A DNA stretch of 22,521 nt from positions 1 through 22,521 of IMG/VR virus record IMGVR_UViG_3300037487_001070. One strand, given 5' to 3'. Each line of letters starts with the position of its first letter. Within the stretch, counting starts at the first letter, position 1. The position numbers and the translations under genes were made by a program. The notes under the pieces were generated by a model. The model saw only the letters and a program-made list of their open reading frames with translations, ran no database searches and was not told the origin of the DNA. Source of the DNA: a virus. Shown here piece by piece: positions 499 through 19,568 of this stretch.

Positions 499-840
499 TT
501 AGAATTTAGTTGAGACAATAAGTGTATCGTTTAAATTAGCATCGATTAAGTTAGCATCTCTTAAATCAGCACAGCTTAAATCAGCATCTCTTAAATCAGC
601 ATCGATTAAGTTAGCACCGATTAAGTTAGCACGCCGTAAATTAGCACCGATTAAATTAGCATTGCTTAAATCAGCACGCCTTAAATCAGCACCGATTAAG
701 TTAGCATCTCTTAAATCAGCACAGCTTAAATCAGCACGCCTTAAATCAGCACGCCTTAAATTATATTTTTTCAAATCATTGCTTTTGATTGCTGATAATT
801 GTTCTTCATCGTTTAGTTCTGTGAATAGTTGTTTAGTCAT
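499..840 (-). CDS. Pentapeptide-repeat protein
   Basis: Residues 27-106 consist of about sixteen uninterrupted five-residue repeats of the A(D/N)LXX class, such as [15 protein letters not shown] and ANLID, which in known families form a right-handed quadrilateral beta-helix. The 26-residue head ([18 protein letters not shown]...) is not repetitive. I chose the ATG at 840 because GAGAAG lies just upstream, whereas the GTG at 852 has no binding site. With about four coils it is much shorter than Qnr or MfpA gyrase-binding proteins, so DNA mimicry is possible but unproven. It sits in the leftward accessory operon, after a GC-rich hairpin. The function of phage pentapeptide proteins of this size is generally unknown. 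Confidence 0.9.
523..762. repeat. 15-bp repeat array coding the pentapeptides
   Basis: About sixteen 15-bp units encode the five-residue repeats. A higher-order repeat is also present: the 44-bp blocks at 543-586 and 693-736 are identical and exactly 150 bp apart. This shows block duplication of ten pentapeptides or gene conversion within the array. Confidence 0.88.
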
Positions 841-873
841 TTTTCTTCTCACGAGTTAATAATTATGTTGTTA

Positions 874-906: not shown

Positions 907-1167
907 TTACTTAATTGCAGTAAGAAGGCTTTCATCAGTGGGAAACCACGGAGCGTCTGTTGGCGTGGTATAGTAGCGGCAATCGTCCCCATACCAGCTA
1001 ACAATTTTTGTTACCGTTCTTTCACCTATTTTTACCCCGTAGGAATTTGTGAAAAAAACCTTTTCCCCAATTTTGAATTTTGGATTGATCGCTTCACGTT
1101 CTCTTAGTTCTATTTTATATTTTTCATACGCTGTCAATGCTAATTCCTGTCCTCGTACCATTTTCAT
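907..1167 (-). CDS. Small phage protein of unknown function
   Basis: I do not recognise this 86-residue protein. It begins MKMVRGQELALTAYEKYK, has a charged helical first third, and then a segment rich in Val, Lys and aromatic residues (FKIGEKVFFTNSYGVKIGE) that looks like a small beta-barrel of the kind seen in KOW/SH3-like folds. It ends TDESLLTAIK. The ATG at 1167 is preferred because AAAGGTG lies seven bases upstream; the alternative GTG at 1176 is part of that binding site. Its 5' leader is nearly identical to that of the preceding gene, which suggests matched translation levels. It belongs to the leftward operon and is probably cytoplasmic, as there is no signal peptide or membrane segment. 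Confidence 0.78.
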   Translation of the reverse strand: MKMVRGQELALTAYEKYKIELREREAINPKFKIGEKVFFTNSYGVKIGERTVTKIVSWYGDDCRYYTTPTDAPWFPTDESLLTAIK

Positions 1168-1198
1168 TGTTTTCACCTTTTTGTTGTTGTTTTTTAGT
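1161..1198 (-). promoter_or_regulatory. Duplicated translation leader, copy 2
   Basis: Reading leftward this element is ACTAAAAAACAACAACAA, then an A-rich AAAGGTG ribosome binding site, then AAAACAATG and the first codons of the gene ending at 907. It matches the leader at 1379-1417 except for one A in the homopolymer. The CAACAACAA tract is unstructured and A/C-rich, typical of translation-enhancing leaders. The stop codon of the preceding gene lies inside it. Confidence 0.75.
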
Positions 1199-1385
1199 AT
1201 TCGTACTCTGGGTACCCTGCATTGAGTTCTTCTAAGTATAAAGTTGCGTCAGCGCTTAATTCTTGTTCCTCGCTGTGAAGTATTTTGCAATCTTCACACA
1301 TGTTCAAAATGTAGCTTTTCACTTGATGTGATTGTGCTAGTTTGTTAGTGCAAAAATTTATTTCACAGTGACTTAATGTTTTCAT
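1194..1385 (-). CDS. Small Cys-containing phage protein, possible zinc binder
   Basis: This 63-residue protein is not recognised. It contains HCEINFC near the N-terminus (residues 6-12) and CEDC near residues 30-33, four cysteines plus nearby histidines that could bind zinc. The C-terminal third is acidic and ends in the tyrosine-rich PEYEY. The ATG at 1385 has AAAAGGTG upstream. It is the first gene after the leftward promoter at 1437-1465 and so probably the most strongly transcribed of the operon. Small acidic phage proteins in this position are often early host-takeover or anti-host factors, but nothing in the sequence shows that here. Confidence 0.75.
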   Translation of the reverse strand: MKTLSHCEINFCTNKLAQSHQVKSYILNMCEDCKILHSEEQELSADATLYLEELNAGYPEYEY

Positions 1386-1417
1386 TGTTTTCACCTTTTT
1401 TGTTGTTGTTTTTTAGT
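1379..1417 (-). promoter_or_regulatory. Duplicated translation leader, copy 1
   Basis: This is the 5' leader of the first gene in the leftward operon and nearly identical over 38-39 bases to 1161-1198. It carries the CAACAACAA tract and the AAGGTG site just before the start. One copy probably arose from the other, placing the same initiation signal in front of two unrelated genes. Confidence 0.75.
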
Positions 1418-1436
1418 CACAATTGACTATATACAC

Positions 1437-1465
1437 ATGATATATGATATATGATCGATTGTCAA
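1437..1465 (-). promoter_or_regulatory. Sigma-70-type promoter for the leftward operon
   Basis: On the minus strand a perfect -35 TTGACA (1465-1460) is followed after 17 bases by TATCAT (1442-1437), a five-of-six -10 match. Transcription would start near 1430, about 45 bases before the ATG at 1385. The spacer contains a direct repeat of ATATGAT, and TTGAC/GTCAA arms at 1424-1428 and 1461-1465 flank the core, so an operator overlapping the promoter is plausible. The HTH protein just upstream (1490-1723) is a candidate regulator. Confidence 0.72.
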
Positions 1466-3437: not shown

Positions 3438-4982
3438 ATGTCAATAATAACAGGTATAGAAAAAGACCCTCATGCGGCAGAGCTAAAAGCTAAGCTGCTC
3501 GGTTCTTTTCTGTTATTCACTCAAACATTCTTTAAGCTGCGTACAGGTCGTGATTTTACAGTGTCATCACCTGTTTCACGTGAACCGCATCAAATTACTA
3601 TAGCAAAGCAATTAACTGATGTATTTCATATGAGAGAGCGTCGAGTATGGATGACACTGCCCCCTGGTCATGGAAAATCTACATTTGTCAGTTACTTTAT
3701 ACCGTGGGCGTTCGCTCACTACCCAGATTGCCGTTTCATTTACATTTCTTATAGTGCGGACTTGGCAGCTAATCATACTGCAAACATTAAAGGCATAATG
3801 GAAATGCCAATGTATCGACACATGTTCGGCGTTGAAATAAGTCGAGAGAGTAGCGCAAAAGATAACTTTATGACAACGCATGGCGGGGCTGTAAAAGCAT
3901 TCGGTTCTGGCGGGGCTATTACCGGTCAAGATGCTGGATTACCTGATTTATCTAGATTTAGTGGTTGTGTGATGATGGATGATATGCACAAGCCGGATGA
4001 GGTTTTTAGCGATACAATGCGACAATCAGTAATTAATAACTACAACAATACGATTAAAACACGACCCAGATCACCCAACGTCCCGATGGTTGGTATTGGT
4101 CACGCGCTACATGAAGACGACTTACAAGCATTTTTATTAAATGGTAGGGATGGAGCGAAATGGAAGCATCTATTATTGCAAGCAGAAGATGGGGCTGGGA
4201 ATATATTAGCGCCAAATTTGATAAGCAGGGAAATGCTAAATGCAGAGAAACAGTTTAACGCATATGTTTATTGGGCGCAATATCAGGGAAAGCCGCAACC
4301 TGCGGGGGGTGGTATATTTAAGACTGATCATTTCGAGTTAATGGATTATTATCCAGATATGCTAGCAACATTCATCACGGCAGACACGGCAGAATCAACA
4401 AAAGACTACGCAGATTACAGTGTGTTCAGCTTCTGGGGACTCTATGAGATCAAGCATAAAGATAGAGCGACCGGTGAGCATGGGCTTCACTGGATTGACT
4501 GCATCCAACAGAGAATAGAACCTGCTGATCTGGAAGATGAGTTTATGGATTTTTACCGTAAATGCCTAGATTTTAAGAAAGAACCGCAGTTCGTTGCTAT
4601 CGAGAAAAAATCTAGTGGGACAACTCTAATATCAATATTAAACAAGATTAGAGGTTTTGATGTTAGAGATATTGCGAGAACTAAGGCAAGCGGTAGCAAG
4701 ACAGCAAGATACTTTGAAGCGCAGCCTTATGTTGCAAAAAGGTTGGTTTCTCTGCCAAAATATGGTAAGCATACCACCTTGTGTCTAGATCATATCGGCA
4801 AGATAACGGCTAATAACACTCATCAGCATGATGACATAGCAGACACAATGTATGACGCCATAAAGATAGGGTTGATTAACAAGTTACTGTTGAATCAAAT
4901 TAAAAAGCCGAAGACTGACACATTAGCAAAAGATTTAATGGGAAAATTTCATAAAATAAATAGACTCAGGGCAAATATATGA
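3438..4982 (+). CDS. terL: Terminase large subunit (TerL)
   Basis: This 514-residue protein is the ATP-driven DNA packaging motor and headful nuclease. The Walker A motif PPGHGKST lies at residues 75-82 and the Walker B motif CVMMDD at 177-182. The C-terminal RNase H-like nuclease shows its acidic residues in FITADTA (Asp316), VAIEKK (Glu389) and HQHDDIADT (Asp465/466). Length is close to P22 gp2 (499). The motor docks on the portal encoded next, and the nuclease cuts the concatemer. The start has only a weak binding site, but the previous gene stops three bases upstream, so translational reinitiation is likely. It overlaps the portal start by four bases (ATGA). All expected catalytic residues appear present. 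Confidence 0.95.
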   Translation: MSIITGIEKDPHAAELKAKLLGSFLLFTQTFFKLRTGRDFTVSSPVSREPHQITIAKQLTDVFHMRERRVWMTLPPGHGKSTFVSYFIPWAFAHYPDCRFIYISYSADLAANHTANIKGIMEMPMYRHMFGVEISRESSAKDNFMTTHGGAVKAFGSGGAITGQDAGLPDLSRFSGCVMMDDMHKPDEVFSDTMRQSVINNYNNTIKTRPRSPNVPMVGIGHALHEDDLQAFLLNGRDGAKWKHLLLQAEDGAGNILAPNLISREMLNAEKQFNAYVYWAQYQGKPQPAGGGIFKTDHFELMDYYPDMLATFITADTAESTKDYADYSVFSFWGLYEIKHKDRATGEHGLHWIDCIQQRIEPADLEDEFMDFYRKCLDFKKEPQFVAIEKKSSGTTLISILNKIRGFDVRDIARTKASGSKTARYFEAQPYVAKRLVSLPKYGKHTTLCLDHIGKITANNTHQHDDIADTMYDAIKIGLINKLLLNQIKKPKTDTLAKDLMGKFHKINRLRANI

Positions 4983-12990: not shown

Positions 12991-13812
12991 ATGTTCGGAA
13001 CATTAACTAGCGCGCTTGGTTTTGGAGGAGGGTCTGCGCAGAACCCTGCCGACATTGGAATGCAATACTTAAATCAGATTGCTCCAACAATTACCCCATA
13101 TTATCAGCCTTACATTGATGCGGGGCAACAATCGTTAGATAGCTTAATGAGAGAGTATGGATCACTGATGAATGATCCATCAGCAAGGATGAACCAAATC
13201 GGGTCCAGCTTTCAACAGTCACCAGGCTATGGCTTCCAATATGATCAAGGAATGAATGCAGCAAACGCAGCAGCTAGCGCTGGCGGAATGGCTGGAACTC
13301 CCGCACATCAGCAACAAGCGTCAACCATGGCTAATAATTTAGCTAATCAAGATTATTACAATTATTTAAATAATGCGACCGGTTACTATAATCAAGGATT
13401 AGGTGGGATGTCAGGTATTAATCAAATGGGGTATGGTGCATCGAATGAGCTAGCACAGTCATTAATGAGCGCACTGATGAGCCAAGGTGGCATGGGATAT
13501 AACGGTCAAGAAAATCAAAATGCCCAACAGCAACAGCAAGGTAATAACTTGATGGGAACACTGGGCGGCATAGCGGGCGGGTTAACCTCTCTATTTTCTG
13601 ACAAACGCCTTAAAAAAGATATTAAAAAAGTTGGTGAGAAAAATGGGCACAATATTTATCATTTTAAATACATTGATGCGCCAGAAAAAACATGGGAAGG
13701 CGTTATAGCTCAAGAGGTTGAGAGAATAGTACCAGAAGCAATTGTTCACATTGATGGATACCTTGGCGTTAATTATTCTATGCTCGGCTTAGAAATGAAA
13801 GAGGTTAAATAA
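12991..13812 (+). CDS. DNA ejection protein (gp7-like) with S74-type C-terminus
   Basis: This 273-residue protein has two parts. Residues 15-145 carry the pattern of internal virion or DNA-transfer proteins, with PYYQPYIDAGQQSLDSL, then SPGYGFQYDQGMNAAN and NQDYYNYLNNATG. After a Gly/Gln-rich linker, residues 202-265 read FSDKRLKKDI, GVIAQEV and GVNYSMLG, the signature of the Peptidase_S74 intramolecular chaperone domain usually found at fibre C-termini; Ser203 and Lys208 fit the autocleavage pair. It is the first of three ejection genes, in the order gp7, gp20, gp16 of P22. AGAGG lies eight bases before the ATG. Similar fusions occur in other podoviruses, so this is probably not unique. Confidence 0.8.
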   Translation: MFGTLTSALGFGGGSAQNPADIGMQYLNQIAPTITPYYQPYIDAGQQSLDSLMREYGSLMNDPSARMNQIGSSFQQSPGYGFQYDQGMNAANAAASAGGMAGTPAHQQQASTMANNLANQDYYNYLNNATGYYNQGLGGMSGINQMGYGASNELAQSLMSALMSQGGMGYNGQENQNAQQQQQGNNLMGTLGGIAGGLTSLFSDKRLKKDIKKVGEKNGHNIYHFKYIDAPEKTWEGVIAQEVERIVPEAIVHIDGYLGVNYSMLGLEMKEVK

Positions 13813-13814
13813 GT

Positions 13815-15080
13815 ATGGCTATTCAACCATTTAATTATGCAGCATTAGGCGCTGCTAATATGGGTCAAACTGATACTGCTGGTAGTTTTATGAAAGGGCT
13901 ACAAGCTGGCTCTATGCCTAAAAACATTAAACAAGAGCAAGAGCAGCGAGAACTTGCCAATGCATTAATGGCAATACAAAATCAATATGCCCCACAGATA
14001 AATGAATCTCAATTAGCCCAGCAAGGATCACAAACAAATTTAAATAACCAAAAAGCAAAATATTTGCCACTTGATTTTTTAATACAAGCCGTTAATTCAC
14101 AACGGGCAAATAATAGGTTTGGGGGATCATATCAATTAAATAAAGCATTGCAGGCAATGACACCAGCGCAAAGGGCGACTTGGCAAGCGCAGAATCCAGA
14201 AGCCTACAGCTCAATGGTTAATCAGATTGGTAATAATGTTCTTAATCCAATTGATGAAAATAAACAAGATTTATTAGGAGATGAATTAAAAAAACTTTTT
14301 GGTGGAAGTGGACAACAGATGCAATCATTTGCACCCGCTGATTCATTAACTATTCATCCAGATGATTATCCTAAATTAGCTAATTTATTAGGTGCATCAA
14401 CAGGTAACGGTCAGCCATTGCCAGTAAATAATAACCAACCGTTACCTGTTAACCCTGATATGATGTCTAAATTTAGTACGTCTCCTGAACAAGTCGATGA
14501 ATTAAAAAAAGCAGCTGAACTATCTGCAAACAAGGAATTGGTTACGACAAAAACCAGAAACCAATTGGAGGGTGGTATTCAATTAGAAGAGATGATGAAC
14601 TCACCAGAGATACAAGAAAAAGTAAAAAATGCATCATTATATGCTGGGGCATTGGGTAGCGGTAAGGCTGCCGTAGCGGCATTATCACAGAAAAACCCAG
14701 CGGCTTATGAGGATTACATATCATTTATTAATCAAGATATGCCATTGATAGCCAATAGAATAAAATCATTAGATGCTATGGGTACTACAGATAAGCAAAG
14801 AGAGGAACTAACAGCTACTTATAATAATACAATGAATGCCGCGACTTCTAACCCTAAACAATTTATTGAACAATACAACAAATTGGGAGAGGTTGTAGCT
14901 AGAGTAAGTAAATCAGTTTCAAAGTCAGCATCACCAGTTTTTCCTGATGATAGAATTCATGGTTTTAATCCAATAGCATCAATCAGCCAAGGAACTCAAG
15001 CAGATGCATTACAGAAAGTAATGTCGCCTAGTTCTGACGCAGTAAGAAAATATAACCCTGCTACTGGGAAAATAGAATAA
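13815..15080 (+). CDS. DNA ejection protein, gp20-like by position
   Basis: This 421-residue, Gln/Asn/Ala-rich and largely helical protein is placed between the gp7-like and gp16-like genes, as gp20 is in P22 (471 residues). It starts MAIQPFNYAALGAANMG, contains a long coiled-coil-like stretch (about 35-80), a low-complexity Asn/Pro linker near 195-215 with a doubled PLPVN motif, and a helical second half ending YNPATGKIE. Such proteins are stored in the capsid or neck and form part of the conduit across the cell envelope. It overlaps the next ATG by one base and follows the previous stop by two. Sequence similarity to gp20 itself is not evident by eye. Confidence 0.68.
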   Translation: MAIQPFNYAALGAANMGQTDTAGSFMKGLQAGSMPKNIKQEQEQRELANALMAIQNQYAPQINESQLAQQGSQTNLNNQKAKYLPLDFLIQAVNSQRANNRFGGSYQLNKALQAMTPAQRATWQAQNPEAYSSMVNQIGNNVLNPIDENKQDLLGDELKKLFGGSGQQMQSFAPADSLTIHPDDYPKLANLLGASTGNGQPLPVNNNQPLPVNPDMMSKFSTSPEQVDELKKAAELSANKELVTTKTRNQLEGGIQLEEMMNSPEIQEKVKNASLYAGALGSGKAAVAALSQKNPAAYEDYISFINQDMPLIANRIKSLDAMGTTDKQREELTATYNNTMNAATSNPKQFIEQYNKLGEVVARVSKSVSKSASPVFPDDRIHGFNPIASISQGTQADALQKVMSPSSDAVRKYNPATGKIE

Positions 15081-17020
15081 TGCCTAAACAGATTGATGTG
15101 CCAGGAATGGGAATTGTTGAATTTCCCGACGATATGACAGATGATCAAATAGTTTCAGCTATTCAAGCAAACTCTTCACAGGGAAATAGTCAGCAAACTA
15201 AAACACAACAGTTTTTAGCAGGATTAACCGATGAGAATTCCCCTGTTTCTTTTATTTTAGGTGCTGGTGACTCTGCGGCTAACCAAATGAGAAACGTAGC
15301 TAATTTAGCCCCATGGACTAATTTACCGGAGATTACCCCAAAATCTAAAGGAACGGCTTATGATTTAGGTGGTTTTGCTGGTGAAATGGCTGGTTTTATG
15401 GGGGGTGGTATAGGATTAAATGCAGCAAGAAAAGCGGCAGAAGCTGCCCCATTAATTGGCAAAGGCGCTGAATGGCTAGGCAAGAGTGGTTTATTGCCTT
15501 CCATGGCTAGGCTTGGCTCTGGTGGTGCTGTTTATGGTGGGGTAATGAACCCAGATGATAGGATGCTAGGTGCGGCATTAGGTGGAACGGTTGGCGCAGC
15601 TAGCCCAGCTATTGCTAAGGGCGTAAGTAAATTAATGCCCTCTAATTGGTCGAGCTTATTACCAGATCAGCTAAAAAGAAACCTTTCAACGGCAAAAGGG
15701 ACGGAGACTAACTTAGGAGCAGTTATTGGCTCACCCCAACTTAAAAATCAATATGAAAACATTTTATCTAATGTGCCATTTTCTGGGGCTAATGCTCAAA
15801 TGATGAGAACCAGTCAAGAGATAGAGAAAAGATCAAATGATATTTTGTCTAAATATTTAGGTAATACGTCACCCTTAGAAGTTGAGGATAAATTAGCCGC
15901 TTCTTTAATGAACGCATTTAAAGAACAAACAGCTTCAAAAAATGCTTTATACAAAACAGCTCAAGACATGGCACCAAAAGCGGGTTTTTCATTAAAAACT
16001 AACAAGTTAGGCGATAAAATATCAGAACACAAGGATGCATTGAGCGCAATGTCTCTTGATGCTCCTACAAAAGATCTTCTTCAGAAAGCTATGTCCCCCA
16101 TAAGAAGTCTAACGGGCGCTCCGAGCACGTCTCAGGTTGGGTTAAAAGAAGCTAATTTGTTGGCATCAAAATTAAATCATGCAGCAAAAAACTATGGGGC
16201 ATCTACAGTTCCTCAAGATAGGTTTAATGCTGATGTATTAGGTAGCTTAGGATCGGCTCTTAAGTCTGATATTAAGCAGTCTGTAAAAGATACTGGGAAT
16301 AAAGAATTTGTTAACCAATTTGCCAAAGCTGAAAAAAATTATAAGGATAATTTTTCTGGATTTTTAGATAAAGATATTTATAAGTTTTTAAATGGTGACA
16401 AAAAAGCCGAAGACATTCTTTCTACGTTTATAAAGACTGGAAAGAACACAGACAAAGGTGATCAGCTTAGCAAGTTAATGTCAAAACTAGACCCAGAGGC
16501 TCAAAATTTAGCTAAATATTCTTATTTGTCACGAGCAATGAAGGGTTCAGAAGACAAGCGAGAGGTTGGAGCTGGCGCATTAAAGTCATTATGGAAAGAT
16601 ACCAACTTAGGGCAAAAGCAAAAAAGAGCATTAATGCCTAATAAGGTAGAACGTCAACAAATGGACAAGTTGGCAGAATTGATTGAGCTTAACCCAAAGG
16701 CAATCCACCTCATGGAAAACCCACCAACTGGGCATAGATGGCTATCTGCTATCCCTTCTGGGATAGGTGCTGGCATAGGAGCAATTGCTGCTCATAGGGG
16801 TGAAAAATATAACTCTGGCGAAGGTGCATTGGCTGGCGCTTTGCTAGGAGCTGGGACATTAGGAGGATCAAGAGCCGCCGCTAAGTTACTGAGTTCAGAG
16901 TCATTAAGAAATGCCCTAGTTGCTAGAATGATAAAGCCAAAAGTTGCGTCAACAGGAATTAATACATTAGCCGGATCAGGATTGGCGCAGAGTTTAGCTA
17001 ACGCAATGCAGAACCAGTAA
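15080..17020 (+). CDS. DNA ejection protein, gp16-like
   Basis: This 646-residue protein is close in size to P22 gp16 (609) and is the last of the three ejection genes. Residues 5-29 read IDVPGMGIVEFPDDMTDDQI, a short N-terminal module common in phage internal virion proteins. Gly/Ala-rich hydrophobic stretches at about 85-180 and 555-600 (GIGAGIGAIAAH, LAGALLGAGTLGG) could insert into membranes, as expected for a protein that helps DNA cross the inner membrane; the centre is charged and helical. It starts by TAATG overlap. Its final 23 bases overlap the 3' end of the opposite-strand membrane-protein gene at 16998-17174. Confidence 0.78.
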   Translation: MPKQIDVPGMGIVEFPDDMTDDQIVSAIQANSSQGNSQQTKTQQFLAGLTDENSPVSFILGAGDSAANQMRNVANLAPWTNLPEITPKSKGTAYDLGGFAGEMAGFMGGGIGLNAARKAAEAAPLIGKGAEWLGKSGLLPSMARLGSGGAVYGGVMNPDDRMLGAALGGTVGAASPAIAKGVSKLMPSNWSSLLPDQLKRNLSTAKGTETNLGAVIGSPQLKNQYENILSNVPFSGANAQMMRTSQEIEKRSNDILSKYLGNTSPLEVEDKLAASLMNAFKEQTASKNALYKTAQDMAPKAGFSLKTNKLGDKISEHKDALSAMSLDAPTKDLLQKAMSPIRSLTGAPSTSQVGLKEANLLASKLNHAAKNYGASTVPQDRFNADVLGSLGSALKSDIKQSVKDTGNKEFVNQFAKAEKNYKDNFSGFLDKDIYKFLNGDKKAEDILSTFIKTGKNTDKGDQLSKLMSKLDPEAQNLAKYSYLSRAMKGSEDKREVGAGALKSLWKDTNLGQKQKRALMPNKVERQQMDKLAELIELNPKAIHLMENPPTGHRWLSAIPSGIGAGIGAIAAHRGEKYNSGEGALAGALLGAGTLGGSRAAAKLLSSESLRNALVARMIKPKVASTGINTLAGSGLAQSLANAMQNQ

Positions 17021-17174
17021 CTTTTTTTACATTATCAGCAATGGAGCTAACGGAAAAAGTAATAATAAATAGTAGGAATGTCTCAAGAGAGGGAATTGGG
17101 ACAGGAACAAAAGCAAGAAAATATGATCCTAAATAGCCGATTAAGAAGAAAGAAGTAAAAACGGTATATTTCAT
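16998..17174 (-). CDS. Antisense two-helix membrane protein, candidate exclusion factor
   Basis: This 58-codon gene lies opposite to all surrounding genes. The ATG at 17174-17172 has AAAAGGTGA just upstream, the same binding-site form as the leftward accessory genes. The protein begins MKYTVFTSFFLIGYLGSYFL and has two hydrophobic stretches, residues 5-25 and 33-46, separated by PVPIPS, then a polar basic tail with KKV and a final Arg. A helical hairpin with both ends in the cytoplasm is predicted. P22 keeps sieA, an opposite-strand inner-membrane superinfection-exclusion gene, in this interval between the last ejection gene and the tailspike. SieA is about 160 residues, so this is an analogue by position, not a homologue. 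A holin-like role is an alternative. No clear promoter is seen. Confidence 0.72.
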   Translation of the reverse strand: MKYTVFTSFFLIGYLGSYFLAFVPVPIPSLETFLLFIITFSVSSIADNVKKVTGSALR

Positions 17175-17201
17175 GATTCACCTTTTAATAGAGATTAGAT
17201 A

Positions 17202-19568
17202 ATGGCACTAGACAATCGATACATTGCAGCTTCAGACTTAGAGTTATATCTGGTCGATAAAACTACTGGCTTGCCCCTGTCTAACGGTACAGTAGAATTT
17301 TATTCCGACGTCAACAGAGCAAGTTTAAAACCAGTGTATACAATAAGTGGGGTATCGCCAAACTATTCATTTGTAGAGCTTCCAAACCCGTCTACACTTA
17401 GTGCTGTTGGTACATTCCAAGACGCAGGACAAAATAACGTTATTCCCTATTATTTCCCCTATAATGCGGACGGCGATACCGAGCTTTACTATATTGTAGT
17501 AAAAGATCAGAACGAAGTCGTTCAATTTACTCGTGAAGCATGGCCACCTAACGTTGACAATGGGTCTGGTGGTGATACGGCAAATGCTATTAACTATATC
17601 CCTAATGGGCAGTTTCTTGCCCATACTGATATACCAGAGGATTCATTGAATAATATTCCATTTGGTCAAATAACTCAACCTCAAACAGAAATAGCACAAG
17701 GAGGTTGGTATTTTAATCAAGATATTGGTACAAGTTCAATAAACAATGTTCAATTTTTCAGGTTTGGCGAGTTTTTATCAAACCCAGAAGCAAGTCCGCG
17801 CTATGCTGTTCAGGTTGTTTCAAACCTTCCAGATGCTTCAGATGCATATAAGGATATAAGAATCAGATTTGATGATGTTAATAAATTTTCATCAAATGAT
17901 ACAGAGTACACGATAACATTTAATGCTGTTACATTTAATAGTGGCGATTTCATACTAAAGTTAGATTTAATTAAAAACTTTGGTACTGGAGGTTCACCAT
18001 CACCAACTACAGTTACTACCTTATCACAATTCACAATAACGGGGAATGAAACAAAGTTTCAGCTTGTTTTTAATTTTGGCAGCAATGAAGGGGAAGGAAT
18101 AGGGGCTAACGATGATGATTATGTTGAACTTGCCTTTTCTTTCCCGATAAATATATCTTTTGGATCACAACTTACTGACTTTGCTTTATTTTCGGGAAGC
18201 CTTGCCTCACCATCTTTTCCACAAACAACGCAGCGTGATGTAATGTCACGCAGTTTAACACCACCAACACCTAACCCAGATGGGTCAGATTTATATTTGC
18301 CAATGGTTCTAACAAAAGAGGGTTATGGATATGACCAGAGCCAAGTTGGTTTAATTCAAGCAGCTCAATATGATATGCCAACGTCTTTATCGCCAGATAG
18401 TAATGTTATGCTGGCTGATGGTGCACAGTATTATGTTAATGGTTATTCTGATTTAGGCATCCCATTTTATAGGTTATGGAGCAAAGCCATATGGAATGAA
18501 ACATTAAAACAACCAAAATTTGGGACTGGTGATAATTTTGTAACCACAGCTATATTAAACTCTTCTTCATCTAGTTTATTTTTTGCATTTAATTCATTCG
18601 GCAATCCAATAGCGCCGATTGATGGAGGTACACTAACTGGCTTTACATTTAAAAGTATTAATGCCATTAGTGCACTTGGATATGGATTCAATGGTTATAA
18701 ATCCGGTCCTGACTCTTCTTTTATAATAGCAAATACTCCTGGTCATGTTCCTGTAAATCCTGCCGCAGGAACTTCAGGGTTTACTATTACTACCTATAGA
18801 AACCCCACTAGTGTATCATCATATTTAATGTTTTCAATTAAGGCTATTGCAGCGACAACATTAGCATCTAAATATTTTACTTTTGAGAGTTTCCCCGCAG
18901 TTCAATACTATATGTGGTTTACTGTAAATGGGGTTGGAGTTGATCCGGCATTAGCTGGAACTGGCATAAAAGTTGAATTATTATCAACATATACGGCTCA
19001 AGATGTATCAGAAATTATAACCTATGCAATAGCTGGTAAAAAAATAGAAGTAATAGAAATTACTAATGGAACAACAACACCACAAAACTCTTTTTTTCTA
19101 TTTACTACAACAAATGCTTCACAGTACTATGTTTGGTTTAATAAGGATAATTTAGGAACTGATCCAGATATAGCAGGAAGAATAGGAATAGAGGTTGCAA
19201 TACTAACTACTGATACGTCATCAATTGTTTCTTCTAAAACAATGGAATCTATCAATAAGGTTTATTTTAAATGTCCTAACTTGCAAGGAGCATTTTTAAG
19301 AGGATATGATCCTAATAAAATATGGGATTTAAATGAAGATTCTAGGTTTACTTTTGGTTCTGAAGGATATGGTAATATTTTAGGTTCTTTGCAAATAGAT
19401 GATATAATAGCTCATAGTCATACCTATGATTATAGGCAAAATTTATTACCACAAACTGGTAGCAGCACCAATTGCTGGGTAGGAACTACAACACAACAAA
19501 CTAATGAATTTGGTGGCGTAGAAACAAAGCCAACTAACTATAGCGTGAACTGGGTAATTAGATACTAA
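17202..19568 (+). CDS. Tail fibre / receptor-binding protein with collar-type tip
   Basis: This 788-residue protein begins with a beta-rich virion-attachment region (residues 8-110, LELYLVDKTTGLPLSNGTVEFY...). A sugar-binding-like beta domain may lie at about 130-340. Two related repeats near residues 556-610 and 628-680 share YYxWF, a Gly/Asp-rich GVDP or GTDP motif and a following IAG or LAG, in a form common in phage and marine bacterial adhesins. The C-terminus has the tail-collar pattern: LQGAFLRG near 694, HSHT at 738-741 (possible metal-binding histidines as in T4 gp12) and NYSVNWVIRY at the end. It probably binds the host surface. The start has only a weak GAGA site. Confidence 0.83.
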   Translation: MALDNRYIAASDLELYLVDKTTGLPLSNGTVEFYSDVNRASLKPVYTISGVSPNYSFVELPNPSTLSAVGTFQDAGQNNVIPYYFPYNADGDTELYYIVVKDQNEVVQFTREAWPPNVDNGSGGDTANAINYIPNGQFLAHTDIPEDSLNNIPFGQITQPQTEIAQGGWYFNQDIGTSSINNVQFFRFGEFLSNPEASPRYAVQVVSNLPDASDAYKDIRIRFDDVNKFSSNDTEYTITFNAVTFNSGDFILKLDLIKNFGTGGSPSPTTVTTLSQFTITGNETKFQLVFNFGSNEGEGIGANDDDYVELAFSFPINISFGSQLTDFALFSGSLASPSFPQTTQRDVMSRSLTPPTPNPDGSDLYLPMVLTKEGYGYDQSQVGLIQAAQYDMPTSLSPDSNVMLADGAQYYVNGYSDLGIPFYRLWSKAIWNETLKQPKFGTGDNFVTTAILNSSSSSLFFAFNSFGNPIAPIDGGTLTGFTFKSINAISALGYGFNGYKSGPDSSFIIANTPGHVPVNPAAGTSGFTITTYRNPTSVSSYLMFSIKAIAATTLASKYFTFESFPAVQYYMWFTVNGVGVDPALAGTGIKVELLSTYTAQDVSEIITYAIAGKKIEVIEITNGTTTPQNSFFLFTTTNASQYYVWFNKDNLGTDPDIAGRIGIEVAILTTDTSSIVSSKTMESINKVYFKCPNLQGAFLRGYDPNKIWDLNEDSRFTFGSEGYGNILGSLQIDDIIAHSHTYDYRQNLLPQTGSSTNCWVGTTTQQTNEFGGVETKPTNYSVNWVIRY

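Follow-up and report, generated by a model that had tools for sequence, protein, structure and literature searches.

The interval between genes 16 and 9 of phage P22 was named the 'ant moron' by Villafane et al. 2008 (PMC2629481), who noted that some P22-like phages lack it and that its content varies among others (PMC2629481). As a moron site it had been recognised in sixteen P22-like phages and prophages, and those who described it raised the question of whether no other point tolerates insertions or the site is what remains of a single ancestral insertion (PMC2629481). In the P22 genome (NC_002371), gene 16 ends at 13313, sieA occupies 13336-13830 on the minus strand and gene 9 starts at 16204; the antisense RNA sar is also found in this slot (NC_002371). 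SieA acts at the inner membrane, where it blocks DNA injection, and escape changes lie in the C-termini of gp16 and gp20 (PMC10883804). Another moron product, gp15 of HK97, is an exclusion protein that is predicted to sit in the inner membrane and to block DNA injection (as cited in PMC10883804).

The window analysed here, i.e. the whole stretch of DNA, is a virus record of 22,521 bases with a P22-like late module. Three genes occupy the 7-20-16 position, the first of which matches the DNA-ejection family phrog_598, and the junction between the third of them and the tail gene is the subject of this work. The features are as follows:

Window late module: portal gene (phrog_156).
Window late module: coat gene (phrog_283).
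Window late module: head closure gp10 gene (phrog_578).
15080-17020, plus strand: gp16-like ejection protein gene, 646 aa, third in the 7-20-16 order, assigned by position.
16998-17174, minus strand: ORF P0001, 58 aa, ATG start, MKYTVFTSFFLIGYLGSYFLAFVPVPIPSLETFLLFIITFSVSSIADNVKKVTGSALR, predicted two-helix membrane protein (ORF call, hydropathy, AlphaFold2).
17178-17186, minus strand: predicted ribosome-binding site AAAAGGTGA, 3 nt 5' of the P0001 ATG (duplex energy).
17021-17201, no strand: variable slot, the 181-bp ejection-tail gap, absent in the relative L002.
17202-19568, plus strand: tail protein gene, 788 aa (phrog_4492, phrog_327 and homologues).
1437-1465, minus strand: near-consensus promoter (TTGACA-17-TATCAT, pointing left) ahead of the phage's own leftward genes.

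The initial annotation had placed a 58-codon minus-strand frame in a 181-bp gap between rightward genes, in the interval and orientation in which P22 carries sieA. The frame, the gap (ejection stop at 17020, tail ATG at 17202) and the arrangement in NC_002371 all hold, and the positional analogy to P22 sieA is right and stronger than that annotation could know. Absent from it was the overlap of P0001 with the last 23 nt of the ejection gene; the ORF occupies nearly the whole gap.

The closest relative found, L002 (identities of 72% in the coat, 57% in the tail and 42% in the ejection protein), has an ejection gene that directly abuts the tail gene (gap 0), and the two genes overlap by 1 nt in L043, L056 and L057. 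A moron is expected to be present in one phage and missing from the corresponding junction of a relative, and this is the pattern seen against all four. The sequences before the tail gene start are alike in the window and L002 (agagattagataATG, agagaagataaATG); as L002 lacks the gap while the remaining junction is the same, the 181 bp were either gained in the window or lost in L002. As a separate observation, a 100-aa protein on the contig of L002 (L167:3925-4227, minus strand) matched, below threshold, YajC (E = 0.001), a host protein reported to be essential for P22 DNA injection (PMC10883804).

We consider P0001 to be probably a real gene. The strong binding site seen in the initial annotation was confirmed: the duplex of AAAAGGTGA with the 16S tail has an energy of -8.5 kcal/mol (the phage's own genes have a median of -6.2), which makes it stronger than in 84% of the window's own genes and unmatched among the 49 shadow ORFs of the window. 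A 16S-tail match of at least 6 nt precedes only 11 of the 848 ATGs in the window, and the core AAAAGGTGAA is common to AAAAGGTGA and the binding sites of two leftward genes with starts at 1385 and 1167, both downstream of the promoter at 1465. Those two successive genes, for which 1385 and 1167 are the better start codons, have near-identical leaders, AACAACAACAAAAA(A)GGTGAAAACAATG (window 1150-1410, minus strand), suggesting that the leader was duplicated or that the two are under common translation control. Further to the left, at the edge of the record (window 499-852, minus strand), lies a gene for a pentapeptide-repeat protein (PF00805, E = 6e-44).

The opposing explanation, that P0001 is no gene but an antisense frame arisen by chance in a non-coding spacer rich in purines, appears rather unlikely to us. 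It has in its favour that no homologues and no promoter were found (see below), that synonymous codon statistics of the 57 codons give no signal either way, and that the plus strand of the gap is rich in purines, which biases minus-strand codons towards hydrophobic residues. Furthermore, about 18 other antisense ATG shadow ORFs of at least 45 aa occur elsewhere in the window, several of them hydrophobic, and with such frames so frequent the length and hydrophobicity of P0001 by themselves are no proof; in some comparably sized slots (L062, L059, L113, L122 and L024), no ORF reaches 50 aa. Against chance stand the strong binding site at correct spacing, the excess of antisense membrane ORFs across the slots of related phages, described further on, and the length of the frame: of 5000 dinucleotide-shuffled versions of the region, 13 (0.26%) contained an ATG ORF of 58 aa or more on the minus strand, and 2 (0.04%) contained one that was hydrophobic as well.

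The product of P0001 is probably translated and inserted into the membrane. Hydropathy is moderate in its two hydrophobic segments (Kyte-Doolittle values of 1.81 and 1.70 over 19 residues), and single-sequence AlphaFold2 predicted helices at residues 3-22 and 30-57 with a mean pLDDT of 79.7; K50, K51 and R58 make up a basic tail. Both the two segments, albeit moderate, and the basic C-terminal tail had been pointed out in the initial annotation, and its notion of a membrane protein much smaller than, and different from, the sieA product fits a protein that is small, probably membranous and without similarity to SieA.

Judged by the searches made, the protein is an orphan. No homologue was found among viral contigs, among plasmids or among the junctions retrieved via the ejection protein (which added the antisense hydrophobic ORFs of L193 and L201); tblastn against phages gave nothing better than E = 6, no match was obtained in PHROGs, Pfam, PADLOC, NCBIfam or PDB sequences, and Foldseek against viral structures returned E values of 5.5 or worse. 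One slot protein of the same size, in L150, was considered as a relative of P0001 (BLASTP without correction for composition, E about 0.05) and rejected after comparison with class-preserving shuffles (P = 0.15). Conservation in related phages, put forward in the initial annotation as a check, spoke cleanly neither for nor against the gene: L002 has no gap at this junction, and the searched collections hold no homologue. With no homologue found, coding and selection on the frame both lack evolutionary proof. An own promoter would be the trait of a moron, and P0001 runs opposite to the operon, but within about 250 nt of it the scan recognised no promoter pointing left; the scan equally missed the annotated promoter of P22 sieA.

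In its length of 58 aa, its pair of hydrophobic segments and its basic tail, P0001 resembles a class II holin in shape. The initial annotation had offered a lysis-timing factor as one option, and a holin, antiholin or other protein of that kind was considered here. Class II holins are small proteins with two transmembrane segments, and P0001 has two predicted helices of moderate hydrophobicity; a weak tblastn match to an annotated mycobacteriophage holin reached only E = 6. We regard this role as very unlikely. P0001 is antisense to the late genes and lies between ejection and tail genes with no endolysin at its side, and it thus departs from the late, co-directional expression beside an endolysin that characterises class II holins; no holin family matched it. 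A lysis role is further disfavoured because L002 has its probable lysis genes at another place and co-directional: its late strand carries, downstream of the tail genes, a GH108 endolysin gene adjoined by a small hydrophobic ORF without a family match.

To place the locus among its relatives, ejection-tail junctions of uncultivated P22-like phages were gathered via their coat, tail and ejection proteins, giving 113 records including the window. In 57 of them, at most 30 nt separate the ejection and tail genes, and 31 (23 non-redundant, window included) have a slot of at least 150 nt. Antisense ORFs of at least 50 aa were present in 15 of the 23 non-redundant slots, with 3.1 expected from shuffles, and antisense ORFs with a hydrophobic segment in 12 of the 23 (0.91 expected); the sense strand carried an ORF of that length in 7 of the slots (3.6 expected) and one with a hydrophobic segment in 3 (1.1 expected). 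Of 82 other late gaps in these records, 9 contained an antisense hydrophobic ORF (Fisher P = 7e-5 against the slot), an imperfect control because most of these gaps contain a sense gene. Antisense membrane ORFs thus recur in this slot among related phages, and the survey makes it most likely that P0001 is part of the known cargo hotspot, the 'ant moron'. Promoters of the form TTGACA-17-TATAGT run left into the antisense gene in L129, L136 and L142.

The occupants of the slot are diverse. In several phages they belong to an antisense family of 79-111 aa with an N-terminal TLxxYxDLxASGIPExQA motif, a coiled coil and a C-terminal hydrophobic segment, often in two or three tandem copies and weakly matching CCDC90-like PF07798 (below cut-off) and phrog_17872. 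Its members, all on the minus strand, are:

L129:3998-4279.
L130:4251-4505 and 4564-4896.
L134:4563-4898.
L136:3360-4137.
L140:4059-4896.
L153:4618-4905.

Also on the minus strand, three tandem and mutually similar ORFs of 60, 64 and 104 aa in L051 (18130-18814) have a coiled coil and a C-terminal hydrophobic segment and are weakly XhlA-like. An SPFH protein was found as well, and endonuclease VII-like HNH genes fill the slot antisense in L067 (18491-19114) and L020 (18648-19202), both on the minus strand. The sense strand carries YefM/YoeB-type toxin-antitoxin pairs, divergent from the antisense membrane gene:

L129:4398-4912, plus strand: YefM/Phd-type antitoxin with a YoeB- or RelE-like toxin.
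L135:4023-4548, plus strand: the same kind of pair.
L136:4252-4912, plus strand: ORF pair resembling a toxin-antitoxin pair.
L142:4335-4927, plus strand: ORF pair resembling a toxin-antitoxin pair, likewise divergent.

Antisense mini-proteins with two segments are encoded in L101/L183 (82 aa), L150 (59 aa), L193 (48 aa) and L201 (70-81 aa), the last two, in L193 and L201, being putative genes with weak start signals.

The unrelated leftward ORFs in distant phages, many of them small and membranous and some with leftward promoters, favour repeated acquisition. Such a slot could in principle be a general exchange site for unrelated, independently acquired antisense mini-membrane exclusion factors, each of minimal size, novel in sequence and matched to the neighbouring ejection protein, a generalisation that we hold to be doubtful.

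For P0001 itself we tentatively prefer the reading that it is a genuine small moron gene, the product of which, by analogy with P22 SieA, would form an inner-membrane hairpin blocking the injection conduit. It would be read leftward against the late operon of a P22-like podophage, as cargo, the leftward transcript would yield the 58-residue protein, and this would insert into the inner membrane as a helical hairpin; more speculatively, the hairpin might disturb the conduit that a related phage assembles from its ejection proteins on superinfection. Position and architecture are what suggest superinfection exclusion, and the mechanism is attractive because P0001 adjoins the 3' end of the gene for its likely gp16-like target, so that blocker and target would travel together.

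The diversity of slot occupants in relatives (SPFH, coiled-coil and membrane-segment proteins, toxin-antitoxin pairs, HNH nucleases), together with the want of any sequence link between P0001 and an exclusion protein, makes it a serious possibility that P0001 is genuine antisense membrane cargo with another role, such as host-membrane modulation, toxin-like host inhibition or defence against unrelated phages. To our knowledge, no antisense membrane gene of this slot other than sieA has been characterised. That sieA is an exclusion gene (PMC10883804) speaks against such other roles.

It is also conceivable that an antisense RNA element acts on ejection or tail messages and the ORF is incidental, as the 23-nt overlap with the 3' end of the ejection gene and the presence of sar in the P22 slot might suggest. 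This is highly improbable in our view: no Rfam family was detected in the window, the gap RNA (plus strand) folds no better than shuffled sequences (z = -0.43), and a strong translation start is present.

A point against the preferred reading is that the relatives of the window phage carry little sign of lysogeny: tyrosine integrase was found in none of 8 related records and S24 repressor in none of 11, HTH_3 in 1 of 11 and a small resolvase in 3 of 11, with a P22_Cro-like protein slightly under cut-off in one, many of the records being fragments. A single-protein scan of genomes for prophages with the window's tail returned none, and an alignment scan for that tail gave five MAG contigs, none of them close.

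Compared with known systems, P0001 shares with P22 SieA the slot, the strand relative to the late genes, the gp16 gene as neighbour and, by prediction, the membrane location. It differs in its size (58 versus 164 aa), in the overlap of 23 nt with the ejection gene (P22 sieA ends 22 bp beyond gene 16), and in that no promoter was recognised and lysogeny of the window phage is not established. There is no sequence similarity to SieA of P22 (type A; BLASTP E = 5.7) and the SieA motif FxRYPxEAxxFNK (PMC10883804) is absent, hence P0001 does not appear to be a SieA homologue. HK97 gp15 can be likened to it by description; it comes from a long-tailed phage and has a different target. The mini-proteins of L101/L183, L150, L193 and L201 resemble P0001 in slot, strand, small size and two hydrophobic segments, and those of L183, L193 and L201 also in overlapping the 3' end of the ejection gene, but they have no detectable homology to it (the best being L150) and their tails are unlike, acidic in L150 and long and charged in L183 and L201. 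With the 'ant moron', the locus has in common an interval of variable cargo that is absent in some relatives, and moron cargo in this slot is of an already known kind; it differs in that the phages are uncultivated and far more distant, the content is unrelated, and the window gap has no mnt, arc or ant. What is new is the tiny orphan protein and the extension of antisense membrane cargo to distant uncultivated P22-like phages, in which the slot ORFs, liable to be missed by gene callers, represent a set of candidate injection-blocking proteins. Should the 58-aa hairpin indeed exclude related phages, SieA would have a far smaller counterpart among exclusion proteins, and one that is easily tested.
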